Shown: one piece after another, positions 9,797-34,799 of the stretch
Layout of the letters: every line of letters starts with the position of its first letter
Position numbering within the stretch: position 1 is the first letter of the stretch
Origin: Phycisphaerae bacterium
GTDB taxonomy: Bacteria; Planctomycetota; Phycisphaerae; Sedimentisphaerales; Anaerobacaceae
Assembly (NCBI GenBank): GCA_016782755.1
Contig: JADHXY010000006.1
Coordinates: forward strand, 1 to 34,807
Length of the DNA: 34,807 bases
Direction of reading: 5' to 3'
Made by a program: the position numbers and the translations under genes
Notes under the pieces: model-generated
The model's database searches: none
What the model was told of the DNA's origin: nothing
Seen by the model: only the letters and a program-made list of their open reading frames with translations

Positions 9797-10426
9797 TTAC
9801 GCTACAACAAGATCCATCGCCAGATCAACCGCCGAAGCCGCATCCGGAGCATACCCATCGGCCTGTATTTTGTCCGAGTATGCCTGAGTAATCGGTGCGC
9901 CGCCTATCATTATCTTAGCTTCTACACCGGCATTCCGCAGTGCCTGAATGGTTTTTTCCATGGCAGGCATTGTAGTGGTCAACAGAGCACTTAAACCTAT
10001 CAATTTGGCTCCACTGCTCCTGGCCTTTTCCACAAATGCATCTGGTGAAACATCCACACCGGCATCGACAACCTCAAAACCATTACCCTTGAGCATCATT
10101 ATAACAAGATTCTTCCCTATATCGTGCAAATCACCCTGTACCGTTCCGATAAGGGCCTTTCCGACGGGCTCGACCCCAGCCTCGGTCAGCTTGGGCTCGA
10201 GCACTTCCATTGCTGATTTCATCGCTCTAGCAGCTATAAGAACCTCAGGAATATAAACTTCATTAGCCTTGAAACGCTTTCCAATCACGCCCATTCCTGC
10301 AACCAAACCGTCATTTAGTACCTTTTGTGGTTCAACACCTTCATCCAACGCTTTTTTTGTCACTTCTACCGCAGTCTTCATATCACCTTTGATAATCGCA
10401 TCTGCCAAATCTTTCATATCAGCCAT
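9797..10426 (-). CDS. MtaC-like corrinoid (cobalamin-binding) methyltransferase protein
   Basis: The 209-residue protein has the two-domain build of corrinoid proteins such as MtaC and MtbC. A helical cap domain comes first (about 1-85, with NDGLVAGMGVIGKRF and VYIPEVLIAARAM). A Rossmann-like B12 domain follows, with GDLHDIGKN where H101 would be the lower cobalt ligand (D99-x-H101-xx-G104), then GLSALLTTT and IMIGGAP. It should carry a methyl group from a substrate-specific methyltransferase to an acceptor. It lies 50 bases downstream of the mtaB-like gene, with AGGAG eight bases before the ATG, so the pair is an operon. No second methyltransferase (MtaA-like, or a tetrahydrofolate-specific one) or reactivation protein is in the window. 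MtaC is the likeliest class because of its partner. A generic corrinoid protein is the alternative. Confidence 0.85.
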   Translation of the reverse strand: MADMKDLADAIIKGDMKTAVEVTKKALDEGVEPQKVLNDGLVAGMGVIGKRFKANEVYIPEVLIAARAMKSAMEVLEPKLTEAGVEPVGKALIGTVQGDLHDIGKNLVIMMLKGNGFEVVDAGVDVSPDAFVEKARSSGAKLIGLSALLTTTMPAMEKTIQALRNAGVEAKIMIGGAPITQAYSDKIQADGYAPDAASAVDLAMDLVVA

Positions 10427-10476
10427 TTGTTGATCTCCTACAAAACAACAATTCCATCTCTATAAATTTACTCGTC

Positions 10477-11853
10477 TTAAATTCCATATTCAGCCGGCAA
10501 GAATTTACCTCTGAATTCCGGTCTCTGCAGCATTTGCTCTATCAGTTGTTCTTCATCTTCTGGCAACGTCTCTAACTGTTGCTCTATCATATCGAGCCAT
10601 TTCAGTTCGTTTTCTTTTATTTTCACTTTCCCTTCCCGGCTGTCTCGCTTAAGTACTTCCGTCGCCGACCGGGCCGCTTCAAGGCTCTGCTCATAAGGGT
10701 TATCCTGAGCAATGATTCTTTCGCTTATTTCCAGCACAATCTCCGGCTTCAGGACGTAAGCTTGTGGATCCAGCGGTGAGTCAGATTCACTAAGCCAGTC
10801 ACGCAATCGAATTATACTTTCAATTCCCTCAGAAGCAGCCACATTCATAAGCCGGCAGTCATAAGCAAGTTGTTCCATTGAAACCGTGGGAGCGTTAGCA
10901 CTCAACATGCGGATATTCTGTGTACTTTCATTCGACCAGCAGTCACATACCGCCTGACTTACGTTACCAACCGGTGACAGATGAGCACATGCCGCCGATT
11001 TACCTTCCATTGATATTGGAACTCCAGCTATCGCTTTGAGGTAAGGCCCTTCGTAGGCACAGTCTTTGGTCGGGCCCTTCGCTCCCTGTCTAATCGCTAC
11101 CAGGCTGCGAGGCACGGATATTACTCGAACTATAGCAGCAAATACGCGAGGTATCATATTCTGTTCTGCCAGAACCATAGCCGTATTTGCAAAGCCGCAA
11201 GCCGAGTCCCCGCTGGGAACAACACCCGTCCGATTACAATAATCAGTAATGTGATTCCACAAAAACTCCATATCCCTGGCTCCCAGCACACCCAGCGCAA
11301 ATATAGAAGCGCCCACATCACAGTTCACCAATGCCTCATCGCCGATCTCCTTGCCCCCGGTGGACTCTATAGCAATAAGATCTGCCCCTGCTTCGGCACT
11401 ACCTTCTAATATTCCGCAAAGATTGCCCCAGTATTTGCCGCTGCGCATAAGAGGCGGCCTATTGAATTCTCTTACGTCATTTATAGTAAGACGAAGTGCC
11501 GATTTCAGGCCGTAGTCCCTATAGCACCGATCCATTTTGTCCGCCAGAAGACGCGTTATTTCCAGACCCCACTGTGGCCGGTTAGTCATCTCCGGCAGAG
11601 TCTCGAATTCAACTAACAATTGCGGAACTTCAAGACGAACTGCTCTTTTGAGCACACCGTCAATTATTTCCTCGTATTGCTTGATAACCTCACACCAATT
11701 TTTATCGTCGATAGTCATCATGGGCAATGTAAAGTTTATCTCCGGGATTACCTGCCCGGCTCCAATTTCAACCTCCCGGCCACACCTGACAACAGAGGGT
11801 GCTTTGCCGTACAAAAAGTTCTCAATTTTATTAATTTTTAGTGTATTGGCCAT
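10477..11853 (-). CDS. mtaB: Methanol:corrinoid methyltransferase, MtaB family
   Basis: This zinc enzyme transfers the methyl group of methanol to the cobalt of its MtaC partner. The 458-residue length and the N-terminal REVEIGAGQVIPEINF fit MtaB. Three candidate zinc ligands sit in conserved settings: E163 in AIESTGGKE, C219 in SGDSACGFANTAM and C265 in PTKDCAYEGPYLK. These correspond to the E164/C220/C269 set known in Methanosarcina MtaB. The later SMEGKSAACAHLSPVGN block is also conserved. The gene starts at ATG 11853 with AGAGGG seven bases upstream and is divergent from an AraC/PocR regulator. In anaerobic bacteria such systems feed methanol into one-carbon metabolism. Here the methanol could come from polysaccharide methyl esters (inference). 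A related methoxy substrate is possible. Confidence 0.87.
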   Translation of the reverse strand: MANTLKINKIENFLYGKAPSVVRCGREVEIGAGQVIPEINFTLPMMTIDDKNWCEVIKQYEEIIDGVLKRAVRLEVPQLLVEFETLPEMTNRPQWGLEITRLLADKMDRCYRDYGLKSALRLTINDVREFNRPPLMRSGKYWGNLCGILEGSAEAGADLIAIESTGGKEIGDEALVNCDVGASIFALGVLGARDMEFLWNHITDYCNRTGVVPSGDSACGFANTAMVLAEQNMIPRVFAAIVRVISVPRSLVAIRQGAKGPTKDCAYEGPYLKAIAGVPISMEGKSAACAHLSPVGNVSQAVCDCWSNESTQNIRMLSANAPTVSMEQLAYDCRLMNVAASEGIESIIRLRDWLSESDSPLDPQAYVLKPEIVLEISERIIAQDNPYEQSLEAARSATEVLKRDSREGKVKIKENELKWLDMIEQQLETLPEDEEQLIEQMLQRPEFRGKFLPAEYGI

Positions 11854-15113: not shown

Positions 15114-16940
15114 TTAATTTATCATATCTTGGCAAAGAAACATATAAGTCTGCTCTTTTTGCAGATCGTTTATCTCTACCTCAGTTTGCCCGTTAACAGG
15201 TACGATTTTCATTAGTCCGTTCCAGCTATAAACAAATATATTAGTGGCCCCAGCAGGTATATCTGTCAAGGTAAAAGAATTTAAATAAATATTTGTCCAC
15301 TTATTTCGGTTCTGCCAAACCCATAGTTTCTTTCCATTACCCCGCAGAACATATACCCCTGTCCCATAGGGGTCGAGTGACACAAATTGCATCCCGCTTG
15401 TTATGTTCAAAACCATCTGAAGAACCTTTCCACGCATAGTAGGTATCCACGGGTCTTGCTGTAAACTTAATCCATAATTGTGATCGCTGCTCTCAAGAGC
15501 AAATATATTCCAGGGCATCGCAAAAACCGTCGCCGGAGCATGACCGTCATTTTTAACCACACCCAGATTGTCCCAGATACCTGTAAGCAATCCCGCAGAT
15601 GCCTGTTCCTCGGTCACTTCCCTGTACTTGTAATTATACTCAGTAGAAAAGAACTCAATATCCGCGGTAATCCCGCATGCATTTTTTATAAATTCAAAAT
15701 TCTTCTGTGCAGAATCATTGTAGGTATTTTCCATAGGAGCCCATTGAACGTCGTAATAAGTATGTAAATCAAGCCCTGCCAGTTTACCTTGATTGAAAAG
15801 CGTCGCAATAACAGGCCCCAACCCTCTAAGTGTCCAGTCGTTATAAGCATTTGGAGATGAAAAACCACCGGGTAAAACTTTGAACAAAGAATTTACTGAA
15901 TGCACTCCATCTGCCAGACCTTCAAGAGCATTTGCGTAATCCTGTGCATTGGGAGTACTGTCAACACGAAAACCACCAGTACCATCAGGCTCGTTCATGG
16001 CCGTATAAATCGTAATACCAAAATCCTCAATCCCATTTTCCTGTCCCCATGTACCACCGGGGCAATAACGAGCCGCAAAAGACCGCCCTATATTATACCA
16101 CTGCTGATAATTCCCAAAACCTTCATTGTTGTCGTAATAACTCCTGTAGTATTCAAAAAGCAAAATTGGCGTAACCGCATGCTGATGCGCCAACATCATT
16201 ACATCATCAAGACTATCGCAATTTGGAGTATTCCAGTCTCCATTCTTAATATAATACCCTGGGTAAACATTTACCCGGCACATTTTTGCGCCAAGACTCT
16301 CCAGAATCCCAAAGTCTCTTAGCTGTTCGTCGTTGGTCCAGCCGTTTGTAAAATTTCCACCGCCACACATTGAACCGGGATCATTAACAGCCGCTCCGTT
16401 GCTATTTGATACCCAAAAACTCCAGACATCCCCTTTATAAATATTTGAGCCGACAACTTCGTCAACTCGCCAAAAATATGTCTTATCAACAGCTAAAGGC
16501 TTAGCAAGAACAAATTCATTAGAATCACATCTACCCAGATACGGTGTTTCTCTATGCCAGTCCTTAGCAAAAATTCCAAAATCCAGCATATTTACAATAT
16601 CATCTTCATTTAAATTCGCATAATATTGACCAAATACCGGCTCAGTTAACCATTGAACTGCCATAATAGCCAAATCATTAAAATCAACCAAACCTGTCTT
16701 ATTAATATCACCATAAAAAGGCGTCGCTATTTCCAATTCGTCAAAATCCGTACCCAGATAAACATCGTGGTTTACCTCCCCTGTTCCAGATACCCAACTC
16801 AAAACCACATTACAATCATCAACAATAAAACCATTTCCCGGATTTGGATTAGACACGCATGGGTCGTTTCCAAAAACAACTTGAAAACTTGTCAAAAGTA
16901 GTATTAAAATTGTTGTTTGTGTATATCTAAATTTCTGCAT
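15114..16940 (-). CDS. Secreted clan GH-A-like glycoside hydrolase with embedded dockerin-like repeats (608 aa)
   Basis: A signal peptide (1-24) is followed by a fibronectin-like module that opens with LSWVSGTGEVNHDVYLGTDF and closes with KTYFWRVDEV...GDVWSFWV (about 35-178). Between those halves, at about 77-129, are two calcium-loop/helix repeats (GDINKTGLVDFNDLAIMAVQWL-type and NLNEDDIVNMLDFGIFAKDW) that look like a dockerin-type pair. The catalytic part (about 195-530) has the clan GH-A layout, with an acid/base candidate E317 in TAMNEPDG and a nucleophile candidate E434 in FSTEYNYK. A beta-sandwich tail follows. I cannot assign a GH family. The start lacks a strong ribosome site. It sits 48 bases before one sulfatase and 19 bases after another, so it is part of the polysaccharide cluster. 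Confidence 0.78.
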   Translation of the reverse strand: MQKFRYTQTTILILLLTSFQVVFGNDPCVSNPNPGNGFIVDDCNVVLSWVSGTGEVNHDVYLGTDFDELEIATPFYGDINKTGLVDFNDLAIMAVQWLTEPVFGQYYANLNEDDIVNMLDFGIFAKDWHRETPYLGRCDSNEFVLAKPLAVDKTYFWRVDEVVGSNIYKGDVWSFWVSNSNGAAVNDPGSMCGGGNFTNGWTNDEQLRDFGILESLGAKMCRVNVYPGYYIKNGDWNTPNCDSLDDVMMLAHQHAVTPILLFEYYRSYYDNNEGFGNYQQWYNIGRSFAARYCPGGTWGQENGIEDFGITIYTAMNEPDGTGGFRVDSTPNAQDYANALEGLADGVHSVNSLFKVLPGGFSSPNAYNDWTLRGLGPVIATLFNQGKLAGLDLHTYYDVQWAPMENTYNDSAQKNFEFIKNACGITADIEFFSTEYNYKYREVTEEQASAGLLTGIWDNLGVVKNDGHAPATVFAMPWNIFALESSDHNYGLSLQQDPWIPTMRGKVLQMVLNITSGMQFVSLDPYGTGVYVLRGNGKKLWVWQNRNKWTNIYLNSFTLTDIPAGATNIFVYSWNGLMKIVPVNGQTEVEINDLQKEQTYMFLCQDMIN

Positions 16941-18425: not shown

Positions 18426-21296
18426 TTATTTGCTTTTAAGTTTAATTGACTTACCTTCTGTCATAAATTGCACCTCAAGCCACGGCAGCATTTGCTTCTG
18501 CGAAGTAGTAACCGAAACTTTTGACCAGCCCTTTTTCATTTTATAATTTTTCTTCTTAACATTCAACTCTTTGAGCTTGTTCCAGTTTTCATCGTAAACA
18601 GTTACTTTATCCCCTCCTTTATACTCGACATACTCACCGCTATCAATCGTACCATCGATACTAAGACTGCCCCTGTCAATGCGAATAACCGGATTTACGA
18701 GTTTCGTCGGTGTTTCTTTCAAAGCTGTGATCTTCTCAACCTTAACATTTGTCTTTGTCTGAGGCGGCAAAAACCCGAATCCAATTTTCAAACGATTAAC
18801 GTGACTGTAGTTTGTACGCTTTGTCCCCATCCGCCAACCCCAGTAACCATTTGCCCATGCCGCTTCACCGTTAGGTATCTCGATGTAGCGTTTACCCTTA
18901 AAGTTAACAGGCATCACATAATCTCTACCGGGAATCTGAAAAACAAGTACCGAACCACTTCCATCACCAGTAACATGCATTCCAATACCGCGATGATTTG
19001 ACATGTCAACTCGACGATTCCAAGTTGGAAGTTTGGATTCTTCCCAAAGCTCCTCGCTGCGAGCATTTTCTGCGGAAATCAGAAAGCCATCACCCTCAAC
19101 AGCAAAAGATGTATCTCTCGTATCAGTTATTTGCGAAACTTCCGGCTGCAAACTAATATTATCTTCATCATCTACGTCGGTAGCATTCATAACACGAATA
19201 ATAAATTTCACCGGCTGAGAATTGTATATATTTTCAAGTTTAAGCTCATCACCAGGTTTAATAAATTGTTTCGGAGCAATCGGGCCGTGTTCCTGTCCCT
19301 TCCTCCACATAACATCGCCTTGTTCCCTTGTAAGTACTTTTACGGGGACGATCTGGAAACCTTCATCTGTTTTACGAACAGTGTGAAGAATCGGTGACGA
19401 CGGATGCGGGTCCATATCATCAGCCATATTCAAAGACCATTGAGGATAACTCAGAGTTTTCAGCATCTCCTGCCTCTGGTCTTCGGTCATCAACCTGCTG
19501 GCATCTTTCCAATTCTTAACAGTTTGAAGTATCTGCTCGGTTATACCAAGGCCCTTGAACGTATCTATCGAAATACCAAACAATGGTTCAGGTTTTGAAA
19601 CATTAAAACGCCTGAAGTTCTGAGCCGCCTGCAAACTCAAAGCCCAATGTGCATCAAGAAGACTGCTTGCAACTCTCGATGGCTGATGCAAGATAACCGG
19701 AGCACCATATCCATGATAACCGGTCCTGCCCAAAAGTTTTTTTGATGAATTGAAAAAATATTCAACAAAACAAGGCGGTGCAGCCGCATGGCTGGTGTTA
19801 GCAGTCATAGGATGGTCAATGTTCTCATAAAGTATAGTCGCAAATTTATCAAATCCCCACATCCTGCCGTTATAAGTATGTATCTCGGCACCATCAAATT
19901 CAGAATGACTTACGCCGCAGCGATTCAGCATACTCGCATAATTTTCCGCGATCTCTGTCAAAAGAGTTGAATCGTTATCCGGAATGAAATTGACACCGTA
20001 AGCATCTATAATACCAACCACTTCATTATCACAATAATGCTCAACAGCCTCAGTATCATAAAGGCCCCTCTGGCAGCCTCTTAAGACCCACACACCCTTT
20101 TCAGTGTCATCAAATTCTTTCACTTTGATAAGCTCATCACCTATACACACAATATCATACTGAAAAACGCTCTGTAACGCATAAGACCTGCTGGGCAGAT
20201 ACTTCCAGTGATTGCTTGGCATCCTGAAAGGAAGTTCTACGCCCTCTTCGGAAACAAAACGTATTGTCGTTTCATCGGCACTGATTTCTTCGGCGAGCCT
20301 GCCCTTGCCCCAGCTGGCAAGTCTTCTATCGGGTTTACTGCCAATGTACTCAGGGTCATATTGACCTAACCCGCCACTGACATAATGAAATTTAAGACTT
20401 ATTCCTTTGCTCCTGAGAAAATCAGAATACTTACGAACGTCTTTCTCACCATTTGGAAATATCTCTTTGTTGATCTCCCAGTTAAGCTTATGTACAGGCC
20501 AAAACGGATCACCTCGCCAAACATTACAGAACAGGAAAATCTCCTTAATATCAGCCATCTGTGCATATTTGACACCCTCATAAAGCTCATCTATACTTGA
20601 CGCATCAAGCCAGAGTCTGCTCTGGTCAGCAAATCTTTGTTGCCATTTCGCGAGCCAATTTTTCGCCACCTCATAATCCCATTCACTTTCCACTTTCGGA
20701 TGAGCCATCTCGCCACTACCCCAAAGCCTCAAAAGCGACTCGTCCTCTTCATCTAAGCTCGAACCATAAAAAACAGCAAAACCACCAAGAGGATTCTTAC
20801 TGCTCCGCTGAGAAAGATGATTCCAGTTAACCCTGATCTTATTATCAGAGTCGCTCACATCCGTCATATAATCTAAACCTATCGCTCTGACACGACCAAC
20901 TGTATTCATCTCAAAGTGCAGCGAAAGATCGTACTGCTTACTAACAGATTTCAACTTTTCAATCTTAAAAATTATATAACCATCTCCTTCTTTAACAGAG
21001 AAAATCACTTCCGGAGTCCCGAATTGGGCAGAGGCTATAAACTTATCACCTTCGATAGCCATATTCTGAAGATGTATTGGATGCTCGCCTTTACACTTGA
21101 GTATAAAACCAGCACCAGGATCAAGCTGATCAAGCAGCTCCTTACCCTCAGCCGTCTTAAACGATGCCGGCTTACCATCCGATGCAAACCTCAACTCAAA
21201 CGAATCCGCATTAATTGCCAGATCACCTGCAAAAACCGAACCAATACCCAAGATGCACATAATAACCAACTCTGTAATTCTCATTCTCGCTTTCAT
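18426..21296 (-). CDS. Secreted 956-aa protein, putative new glycoside hydrolase; paralogue of 31797-34799
   Basis: I do not recognise a named family. The protein has a signal peptide (1-23), an N-terminal beta-rich region, and a central region whose alternating strands and helices suggest a TIM barrel: EIFLFCNVWRGDPFW, GISLKFHYVSGGLG, EFDGAEIH (467-474, with D468 and E471 as catalytic candidates) and NIDHPMTANTSH. A WVLRGCQRGLYDTEAVEH segment interrupts it. The C-terminal part has a carbohydrate-binding-like beta-sandwich (GMHVTGDGSGSVLVFQI and FKGKRYIEIP) and a final small domain ending WLEVQF. The 1000-residue protein at the right end shares all of these blocks. AAAGGG lies seven bases before the ATG. 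Its place among fucosidases and sulfatases supports a glycosidase role (inference). Confidence 0.72.
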   Translation of the reverse strand: MKARMRITELVIMCILGIGSVFAGDLAINADSFELRFASDGKPASFKTAEGKELLDQLDPGAGFILKCKGEHPIHLQNMAIEGDKFIASAQFGTPEVIFSVKEGDGYIIFKIEKLKSVSKQYDLSLHFEMNTVGRVRAIGLDYMTDVSDSDNKIRVNWNHLSQRSSKNPLGGFAVFYGSSLDEEDESLLRLWGSGEMAHPKVESEWDYEVAKNWLAKWQQRFADQSRLWLDASSIDELYEGVKYAQMADIKEIFLFCNVWRGDPFWPVHKLNWEINKEIFPNGEKDVRKYSDFLRSKGISLKFHYVSGGLGQYDPEYIGSKPDRRLASWGKGRLAEEISADETTIRFVSEEGVELPFRMPSNHWKYLPSRSYALQSVFQYDIVCIGDELIKVKEFDDTEKGVWVLRGCQRGLYDTEAVEHYCDNEVVGIIDAYGVNFIPDNDSTLLTEIAENYASMLNRCGVSHSEFDGAEIHTYNGRMWGFDKFATILYENIDHPMTANTSHAAAPPCFVEYFFNSSKKLLGRTGYHGYGAPVILHQPSRVASSLLDAHWALSLQAAQNFRRFNVSKPEPLFGISIDTFKGLGITEQILQTVKNWKDASRLMTEDQRQEMLKTLSYPQWSLNMADDMDPHPSSPILHTVRKTDEGFQIVPVKVLTREQGDVMWRKGQEHGPIAPKQFIKPGDELKLENIYNSQPVKFIIRVMNATDVDDEDNISLQPEVSQITDTRDTSFAVEGDGFLISAENARSEELWEESKLPTWNRRVDMSNHRGIGMHVTGDGSGSVLVFQIPGRDYVMPVNFKGKRYIEIPNGEAAWANGYWGWRMGTKRTNYSHVNRLKIGFGFLPPQTKTNVKVEKITALKETPTKLVNPVIRIDRGSLSIDGTIDSGEYVEYKGGDKVTVYDENWNKLKELNVKKKNYKMKKGWSKVSVTTSQKQMLPWLEVQFMTEGKSIKLKSK

Positions 21297-31796: not shown

Positions 31797-34700
31797 CTAT
31801 TTCTTGATAAACATTGGCTCATCATGAACAAAAAACTGGACTTCAAGCCATGGGGCACTCTTTTTGTTATGATTGGTCACCTCAATATCTAAGTAGCCCG
31901 CTGGGGCCTCGGCTTTATCAAGCACAACAGGCAGGTCTTCGAGTTTGTTCCAATTCAGGTCATAGACCCCAACACTGTTTCCGCCTTGATACCAAAGGTA
32001 GCGATCCGAAGGAACTGTCCCTTTTATCTTGATCTTTCCATCTCCAACCTTGATTTCAGGATTGACCAGGGCAGAATCCTTTTCCGGCAGGAACCTGAGG
32101 TCTTCAATCAATACCGATGATTTGCTATGAGGTTTAATTCTGTCAATTCCCAAAGAAATTTTGGTAATGCTATTGCCCCGCCAACGTTTATAGGCATTTA
32201 AAAAGGGCCAGCGTGCATCAGTCCATGACGCTTGCGGAGTTGGAATTTCAATATAACGTTTGCCTTTGAAGTCGAGATGAACGATATAGTCACGGGTTCC
32301 CTGACCACTGATGCGGATAACCAGAATGGCGCCGCTGCCGTCACCAGTAACAACAATCCCCATACCCCCTGCCTTGGTGATGTCGGTTTTTACTTTATAC
32401 CACGGCATGGTGTCACTCTTCTCTTTAACCAGCGCAAGAACCTTGCCTGTATCATTTTGGCAGCTTATCCTGACCCCTTTGCTTTCCCGAACAAAACGTG
32501 TCTGGCCCTTCTGCTGGATATTTGCCGGATCGGGCATAATCCGATAACTGATCTCCTGGCCTGACAGATTTTTTGCAGCACGTTTTTCAATCGTTACTCC
32601 CGAGGCACCCTGGAACTTATCCAGCATGTCGTTGAACTTCTTTTCTTCTTTGCTTTCCCCTTTAGCTTTCAACCGCATCAAGGCAATATCCCGATTGAAG
32701 TCAGGCATAACACGCACGATAAATTCCGGAACCTGGCTGTGATAAGGATTGTTTACACGGAGAACCTCCCCGGGCCGAATATATTGATATGGATACACTG
32801 TGCCGTGTTCCTGATGAAAGGTCCAGCCGCGGTCAATGCCTTCCCGTTTCATAATCCGGAAAGGCACTACGCTGAGCGCGTCGCCTTCGCCCTCAAAGCG
32901 AAATATCTCATCGACCAAACTGTAGCGTGAACTCCATGGGTTTTCATACCACGAGGAGAATATACGCTTCTTGATCGCCTGGGGCAGTTTTGGCCCCAGC
33001 GTACGCCATTGATTGAAAGTCTTGCCGTAGTGATCTATCAGGCCGTGACCATTAAATATATCCATGGTTATATCATGAAATCCCGCTTGAGCCGTGATAG
33101 CCGTGCGGAGGCTGGCAGCTGTACGGGCAGGGATAGCCCAGCAGTAGGCATAGGGGCTGCTGGCAGACCAGTGGCTCTGGTGAAGACCGATCTTCATATC
33201 ATCAGCCCAGGGAATGCCCACGGAGCGACCATTGCGTGTAGTATCCATGGCGTTCTGTACCGAATGAAATTTCCCCTCAATAAAACCCCATGTCATATCC
33301 CCTCCGGAGGTGCTGCCATACACAGGGTGATCAATATTACGGTACACTTCGCCCATAAATTTGGTCGTTCCATAATGAAACATCATTGCATGAACTTCCA
33401 AAGCGTCAAAGTTGGCTGAGCCAGCATTCACTTCATTGTGAAATTCTCCAAACCGTTTAGCCATCTCTTCCATAAGGGTGCTGTCGGGATCCGGGGCAAA
33501 GGCAATGCCGTAAGTGCGATACAACCCACGCGCCTGCTCACCAGCGACATGTGAAACGGCGTCGGTGTTGCCAAATCCGCGTTTGCAGCCTTTCAGGGTC
33601 CAGGTTCCATCTCCATTGTTGGTGTATTCCGTGAAGGTGACAAGTTCATTGCCTATCTGCATGCAGTGTCTGTCATAGACTTCCACAAATTTGCGATTTG
33701 AATCATATTCAGTGCTATGTTCCCTACCTTCGGCGACGACAATTTCTTGTGATTGCCTATCGGTATTTTTGGCAAGTTTCCCACGCCACCAATAAGCTAA
33801 TCTCGCATCAGGGATCTTGCCGAGATACTCAGGATGTTTTTCTCCCAGTCCATAGCTTATCGTTCTAAAGGTCAACTTCATTCCCTTGCTTTCAAGATAT
33901 TTGCCAAATGCGACCATGTCTTTTCTGCCGCCGGGGAATATTTTCTCGCTAACCTCGAAATTATCCCGATCCGATGCCCAATATCTGTCACCCCAAGTAT
34001 TCAAATGCATGTAAACTTTTTTCATACCGAACTCCGCCGCCTTGTCGGCAAGCGGTTTCAGGTCTTCCGGTTTTCTCGGCCCGATATACATTTGTGTCGT
34101 ATAGGTTTTACACACTATGTCAATATAGTCTGATATCCATTTTTTTGCGCGTGCAACTGTCCATTCACCTTCAACCTTTGGATGCGGCATGTTTTCATTC
34201 GCCCAGACATCATAGAGTATTTCATCGTCATCCTCATCATTCTTTGGATACCACAAGGCTATTCCGCCGAGAGGATTGTCCTTGCTTCTCTGCAGAACCC
34301 CAAAGAAACTGGGATTATTACCAAGCCGAGGTGTTTTTTTGGTTACACCATCCAGAGGCATCCAGTTAGTCCCGTCAATCCTTTGCATGGTGAGTACAGT
34401 GGCATGTTCTTTCTCTGGATTCTCCATGCTGACCAACTCAAGCGTCAGGTAACTTCCCTTATCGGTAGCCTTAAAGGTAAAACGAGGCAATTCTCCTTTT
34501 GCCGGAGCAAGTTTTATCAAATCACCATTTTGAGAAACCGATTTAAGCCCGATTATCCTGCGTTTGCCGTCATCCAGGCCGTAAACATTCTCCAGCAATT
34601 CCACTGTGAATAAACAGTCTATATTTTTTATTTTCAACAACCTCTTGACCGCAGCTTTTTCGACAAGAGCCACAGCCTGACCATCAGAACTCAACACAAG

Positions 34701-34799
34701 ATCAAACCGACCACTTTCTATAAATATATTCGCAGCTTCAATATTTCCAGATAAAACAAGCAAAACCACAACCAACAATAAACTCTTGAAAATTTTCAT
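31797..34799 (-). CDS. Secreted 1000-aa protein, putative new glycoside hydrolase; paralogue of 18426-21296
   Basis: It has a signal peptide (MKIFKSLLLVVVLLVLSGN) followed by the same order of blocks as the 956-residue protein. These are KDNPLGGIALWY, HPKVEGEW, VYMHLNTWGDRYW, EKIFPGGRKDM, GMKLTFRTISYGLG, PDARLAYWWRGKLA, WTLKGCKRGFGNTDAVSH, FDALEVHA (464-471, with D465 and E468 as catalytic candidates) and NIDHPVYGSTS. The C-terminal beta-sandwich shows VVTGDGSGAILVIRISGQG and DFKGKRYIEIPTP. I know no named family with this set. It is the first visible gene of the polysaccharide cluster. Only eight bases upstream are in the window, so its promoter and ribosome site cannot be judged. Confidence 0.72.
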   Translation of the reverse strand: MKIFKSLLLVVVLLVLSGNIEAANIFIESGRFDLVLSSDGQAVALVEKAAVKRLLKIKNIDCLFTVELLENVYGLDDGKRRIIGLKSVSQNGDLIKLAPAKGELPRFTFKATDKGSYLTLELVSMENPEKEHATVLTMQRIDGTNWMPLDGVTKKTPRLGNNPSFFGVLQRSKDNPLGGIALWYPKNDEDDDEILYDVWANENMPHPKVEGEWTVARAKKWISDYIDIVCKTYTTQMYIGPRKPEDLKPLADKAAEFGMKKVYMHLNTWGDRYWASDRDNFEVSEKIFPGGRKDMVAFGKYLESKGMKLTFRTISYGLGEKHPEYLGKIPDARLAYWWRGKLAKNTDRQSQEIVVAEGREHSTEYDSNRKFVEVYDRHCMQIGNELVTFTEYTNNGDGTWTLKGCKRGFGNTDAVSHVAGEQARGLYRTYGIAFAPDPDSTLMEEMAKRFGEFHNEVNAGSANFDALEVHAMMFHYGTTKFMGEVYRNIDHPVYGSTSGGDMTWGFIEGKFHSVQNAMDTTRNGRSVGIPWADDMKIGLHQSHWSASSPYAYCWAIPARTAASLRTAITAQAGFHDITMDIFNGHGLIDHYGKTFNQWRTLGPKLPQAIKKRIFSSWYENPWSSRYSLVDEIFRFEGEGDALSVVPFRIMKREGIDRGWTFHQEHGTVYPYQYIRPGEVLRVNNPYHSQVPEFIVRVMPDFNRDIALMRLKAKGESKEEKKFNDMLDKFQGASGVTIEKRAAKNLSGQEISYRIMPDPANIQQKGQTRFVRESKGVRISCQNDTGKVLALVKEKSDTMPWYKVKTDITKAGGMGIVVTGDGSGAILVIRISGQGTRDYIVHLDFKGKRYIEIPTPQASWTDARWPFLNAYKRWRGNSITKISLGIDRIKPHSKSSVLIEDLRFLPEKDSALVNPEIKVGDGKIKIKGTVPSDRYLWYQGGNSVGVYDLNWNKLEDLPVVLDKAEAPAGYLDIEVTNHNKKSAPWLEVQFFVHDEPMFIKK

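Follow-up and report, generated by a model that had tools for sequence, protein, structure and literature searches.

The window analyzed here, a stretch of 34,807 nucleotides from a Phycisphaerae bacterium (contig JADHXY010000006.1), encodes a large protein, P0001, which an initial annotation had proposed as a member of an undescribed glycoside hydrolase family. The locus raises the question of what kind of enzyme P0001 is and on which glycan it acts. The evidence assembled below suggests that P0001, a member of a large family, is very probably an enzyme cutting sugar polymers that is distantly related to α-galactosidases and fucosidases.

Domain architecture and predicted fold of P0001

The open frame of P0001 covers exactly positions 18426-21296 on the minus strand and encodes 956 amino acids. 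The AlphaFold model of the whole protein has a mean pLDDT of 90.4 and a pTM of 0.87, and in this model barrel strand 3 comprises residues 300-306 and strand 4 residues 462-468, with a β-domain (approximately residues 328-432) placed between them. The features of the window that are referred to in the following are:

18426-21296, minus strand: focal gene P0001, 956 aa, candidate retaining α-glycoside hydrolase (open frame; model with pLDDT 90.4)
21225-21296, minus strand: residues 1-24, signal-peptide-like N-terminus (putative, from the sequence; predicted helix 2-21)
20697-21224, minus strand: residues 25-200, N-terminal β-sandwich as in GH36, GH31 and GH101 (model; 8x1b aligned from model residue 26)
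19452-20684, minus strand: residues 205-615, (β/α)8-type catalytic barrel (modeled separately, pLDDT 90.3; VIA Z 17.0 to GH36 8x1b)
20001-20315, minus strand: residues 328-432, β-domain inserted between barrel strands 3 and 4 (model; part resembles Rcc01698_C)
19878-19898, minus strand: residues 467-473, FDGAEIH motif at the end of barrel strand 4 (alignment and model)
19893-19895, minus strand: D468, predicted catalytic nucleophile (invariant; aligned to the GH36 and GH29 nucleophile Asp)
19761-19763, minus strand: E512, candidate acid/base, present in 32/33 sequences of the focal clade (role suggested by conservation)
19182-19409, minus strand: residues 630-705, β-sandwich after the barrel (model)
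18699-19169, minus strand: residues 710-866, CBM11-like β-sandwich (structure match to 6r3m and 6r31)
18429-18698, minus strand: residues 867-956, C-terminal β-domain (model)
31797-34799, minus strand: second family copy with 1000 aa and 30% identity to P0001 (sequence comparison)

P0001 had initially been read as a secreted multi-domain protein with barrel-like repeats, an FDGAEIH motif and a carbohydrate-binding-like C-terminus. This reading agrees with the hydrophobic, signal-like stretch at the N-terminus, with the several domains of the model, with the presence of F467-D468-G469-A470-E471-I472-H473 and with the CBM11-like structure of residues 710-866, and the structure search of the central region returned a glycoside hydrolase fold for the predicted barrel. 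In Foldseek the best whole-chain matches were GH101 (E 3.7e-14), GH31 (E 2.3e-11) and GH36 (E 1e-9), with low TM-scores of about 0.3, because the placement of the domains differs. For the barrel alone, the best match in VIA was the GH36 enzyme 8x1b (Z 17.0, 3.4 Å over 261 residues), and GH13 enzymes were found at Z 16-17, while residues 710-869 match CBM11 (6r3m, Z 11.6; 6r31, Z 11.4). Barrel families of the GH36 and GH13 type are retaining α-glycosidases whose nucleophile is an Asp at strand 4. Model and alignment place both the barrel fold of the retaining α-glycosidase superfamily (GH13/31/36/101 type) and the Asp at the nucleophile position of strand 4 in P0001.

No part of the family is better conserved than the inserted β-domain. 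Its own best-conserved region, around E388, W403, R410, G411 and T415, resembles Rcc01698_C of phage and gene-transfer-agent tail hub proteins; unlike in those proteins, the domain sits inside a glycoside hydrolase barrel in P0001.

Relationship to known glycoside hydrolase families

In Pfam, hmmscan of P0001 gave a single match, of the insert to Rcc01698_C, which stays below the cut-off (E 0.013, 16 bits), and neither the NCBIfam search nor the single-sequence search against the PDB gave a match for P0001, the latter in terms of significance. The Pfam scan of 38 relatives found Rcc01698_C (PF23666) in 24/38 (best E 9e-7), CBM_11 or CBM_4_9 in a few of them and various accessory domains in individual ones, and no glycoside hydrolase family. 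At E 0.1, PF02065 (Melibiase) matched none of the 38 relatives, and neither PF01120 (Alpha_L_fucos) nor PF12905 (GH101) matched P0001 or the 38 relatives. For the GH107 and GH168 fucanases, which have solved structures, no PDB entry appeared among the sequence or profile matches up to E 10, and no existing description of the family was found in literature searches. Being absent from Pfam, NCBIfam and the PDB, the family makes a promising candidate for a new family of glycoside hydrolases.

P0001 might instead belong to an existing CAZy family without Pfam, NCBIfam or PDB entry, such as GH187 (endo-α-1,3-L-fucanase). This is unlikely: no direct evidence for such a placement emerged, and the GH187 enzyme Fun187A originates from Wenyingzhuangia (Bacteroidota), whereas relatives of P0001 were found in Planctomycetota, Verrucomicrobiota and Lentisphaerae. 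What speaks for it are the fucosidases and sulfatases in the window and the size of P0001, which is similar to that of Fun187A. Fun187A, the founding GH187 enzyme, has about 101 kDa, and the review describing it (PMC11943901) gives neither a structure nor catalytic residues for GH187.

Profile comparisons revealed remote homology to two families. Against the PDB, the barrel profile matched GH36 at E 1.8e-6 over strands 1-3 only, and the profile of the C-terminal half of the barrel gave chance matches only. With the inserted domain removed from the family profile, hhalign against three GH36 proteins of the same phylum gave P 1e-7 over 166 columns; D468 falls on the GH36 nucleophile Asp (KID-YN) and the Ser-Ser-Gly stretch of strand 5 lines up as well. 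The corresponding run against GH29 gave P 9e-5 over 131 columns, again with D468 on the nucleophile Asp (WFD-S) at the end of strand 4. In 100 column shuffles of the family profile the top scores were 23.9 (GH36) and 23.3 (GH29), compared with observed scores of 62.8 and 41.7, and the controls GH35, GH28, sulfatase, MtaB and a 608-aa protein of the window stayed at P 0.18-0.67. No match was obtained with the GH27 and GH31 profiles built for this comparison, which is attributed to their few or ragged sequences. The initial statement that P0001 matches no family thus holds at the level of families in Pfam, NCBIfam and PDB sequences; however, P0001 is a remote relative of GH36 and GH29 and not an orphan.

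With the GH36 α-galactosidases and FpGalNase (8x1b, 9awt), P0001 shares the N-terminal β-sandwich and the barrel, profile similarity in strands 1-5 and the Asp at the end of strand 4. This similarity, with the nucleophile aligned and GH36 as best structural match of the barrel, would also be expected of a divergent GH36 member, but such membership is very improbable, as PF02065 fails throughout the 38 relatives, strand 2 carries Val/Thr-Trp-Arg in place of the Asp-Gly-Trp-type motif, the strand-6 acid/base of GH36 is not conserved and a domain is inserted between strands 3 and 4. Sequence identity is about 10%, and the CBM11-like C-terminus is a further difference. The GH29 α-L-fucosidases have their strand-4 nucleophile Asp aligned with D468 and are encoded near P0001 in the window, whereas P0001 possesses an additional N-terminal sandwich and the insert and escapes the GH29 model PF01120; no counterpart of the GH29 acid/base was identified in P0001. 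The GH101 endo-α-N-acetylgalactosaminidases (5a56, 2zxq) appear similar in the order of domains and give the best whole-chain match, but show only 8% identity and a TM-score of about 0.27, and they gave no profile match, although GH101 was silent in the controls too. Most likely, the family shares ancestry with GH36 and GH29 but stands outside both.

The choice of D468 as catalytic residue in the initial annotation proved sound at the level of prediction: all relatives with data (37/37) and all sequences of the focal clade (33/33) carry D468, which in addition aligns with both nucleophiles. E471, which had been named as second catalytic residue, fared less well. It is present in 20/22 sequences of the close set and 29/33 of the focal clade; Asn takes its place in two paralogs of the same genome (contigs 19 and 120) and in one Verrucomicrobiota relative. 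E512 (32/33) is better conserved; H473 is found in 31/33. No conserved acid is present in the aligned residues 530-541, the site of the GH36 strand-6 acid/base (strand assigned from the model), and position 501 is Asp (HDSSG) in most close relatives outside the own genome and Thr in P0001. As E471 varies among the own paralogs, the acid/base assignment was left between E512 and E471, with E512 ranking no lower than E471 when judged by conservation. That P0001 is a catalytically dead glycan-binding or scaffolding relative, as the loss of E471 in two paralogs, the missing usual GH36 acid/base and the carbohydrate-binding domains might suggest, is hardly likely given an Asp invariant in at least 37 sequences, the near-invariance of H473 and E512 in the focal clade and the location of the family in operon-like arrays with degradative enzymes.

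We therefore regard P0001 with fair confidence as a secreted, multi-domain retaining α-glycoside hydrolase of a family separate from, yet homologous to, GH36 and GH29, with an ester-decorated glycan as likely target. Of this reading, the predicted fold, the remote homology, the invariance of D468 and the link to the esterase are direct results of the analysis, from which hydrolysis, retention and the substrate are inferred. In the proposed mechanism D468, at the end of barrel strand 4, would attack the anomeric carbon and E512 or E471 may serve as acid/base; the substrate cleft probably owes its shape to the insert between strands 3 and 4, comparable to domain B in GH13, and the CBM11-like domain probably keeps the enzyme on the polymer.

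Copies and distribution of the family

A second copy in the same cluster, as initially noted, is encoded at 31797-34799 and keeps the Asp, Glu and His of the motif and the equivalent of E512. Across the genome (1.86 Mb, 84.6% complete) the family is present seven times. Besides the two window copies, contigs 19, 53 and 58 each carry a complete one, and contigs 120 and 123 each carry one that is cut by a contig end. The latter two overlap in residues 385-424 and their sequences differ there, showing that they are separate genes. Two copies per cluster were also observed in L075 (G658), L076 (G764), L078 and L080, in the phylum of a Verrucomicrobia locus.

Relatives were found in 20/392 genomes of the same phylum (seven-member profile, E 1e-15) and in 12/338 genomes of the phylum of that Verrucomicrobia locus (E 1e-60), two rates that are not directly comparable because the thresholds differ. 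A scan of genome contigs yielded 17 loci with 33-44% identity, from MAGs of Planctomycetota, Verrucomicrobia, Lentisphaerae and one unassigned bacterium, and no relative was present among the viral contigs searched. In the gene tree the phyla are intermixed and the copies of the own genome fall on several branches, suggesting that these copies are old and that the gene has probably moved between lineages.

Gene neighborhood and candidate glycan target

The window encodes two GH29, one GH27 and two GH28 enzymes and three sulfatases with the C-x-P-x-R motif, furthermore a PocR/AraC-type regulator, MtaB with a corrinoid protein, a rhamnulokinase-like kinase and a class II aldolase fragment. The fucosidase/sulfatase cluster described initially is thus present, with its two GH29 enzymes and three sulfatases. 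As a clue to the polymer, however, it did not stand up: around the relatives, GH29 (4/31 focal loci versus 2/20 background stretches), sulfatase (9/31 versus 13/20) and GH28 (3/31 versus 2/20) are not enriched. This neighborhood was dropped as a strong substrate clue, since at background level it says little about the substrate. Within the window itself, the fucosidases, the α-galactosidase-like enzyme, the galacturonases, the sulfatases and the rhamnulokinase point to a sulfated fucose/rhamnose/galacturonate polymer.

Two further observations concern the window. A secreted 608-aa protein (15114-16940, minus strand) without Pfam or NCBIfam match above cut-off has a dockerin-like stretch followed by a barrel-like region with MNEPD and STEYN, which are typical of the acid/base and nucleophile of clan GH-A, and is judged by these motifs a second, unassigned glycosidase candidate. 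At 9797-11853 (minus strand), an MtaB-like methanol:corrinoid methyltransferase and a B12-binding corrinoid protein lie in the polysaccharide cluster; for this pair, methyl esters or O-methyl sugars might be the methanol source.

The neighbor that recurs around the relatives is an AXE1/DLH-type α/β-hydrolase (esterase), often within a few bases of the family gene (for example 6146/6150 in L043 and 597/608 in L044). It was found at 18/31 focal loci and in 0/20 background stretches (Fisher p 7e-6), a p-value that serves as a guide only, as the background was drawn from a small number of genomes, most of them rich in sulfatases, and the focal loci are partly non-independent and of unequal length. 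The esterase also adjoins the copy on contig 58 of the own genome, while none is present on the contig of the window. As a conserved protein of 600-720 aa it adjoins the family in L043, L044, L046, L048, L052-L056, L058, L059, L062, L079 and L081-L083; sometimes the esterase is present in two or three copies, as in L046. As this esterase stands beside the gene in most relatives, the likely target is an ester-decorated glycan, on which P0001 and the esterase would probably work together.

Bacteria of the PVC group are rich in sulfatases and glycosidases, and for many sulfated, ester-decorated algal and bacterial polymers we know of no enzymes that open them. Automatic pipelines built on the annotation libraries searched here would overlook the family, which these libraries do not contain. 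The family is directly testable: its predicted nucleophile can be aligned, one genome of 1.86 Mb carries seven copies, and it has a conserved esterase partner.
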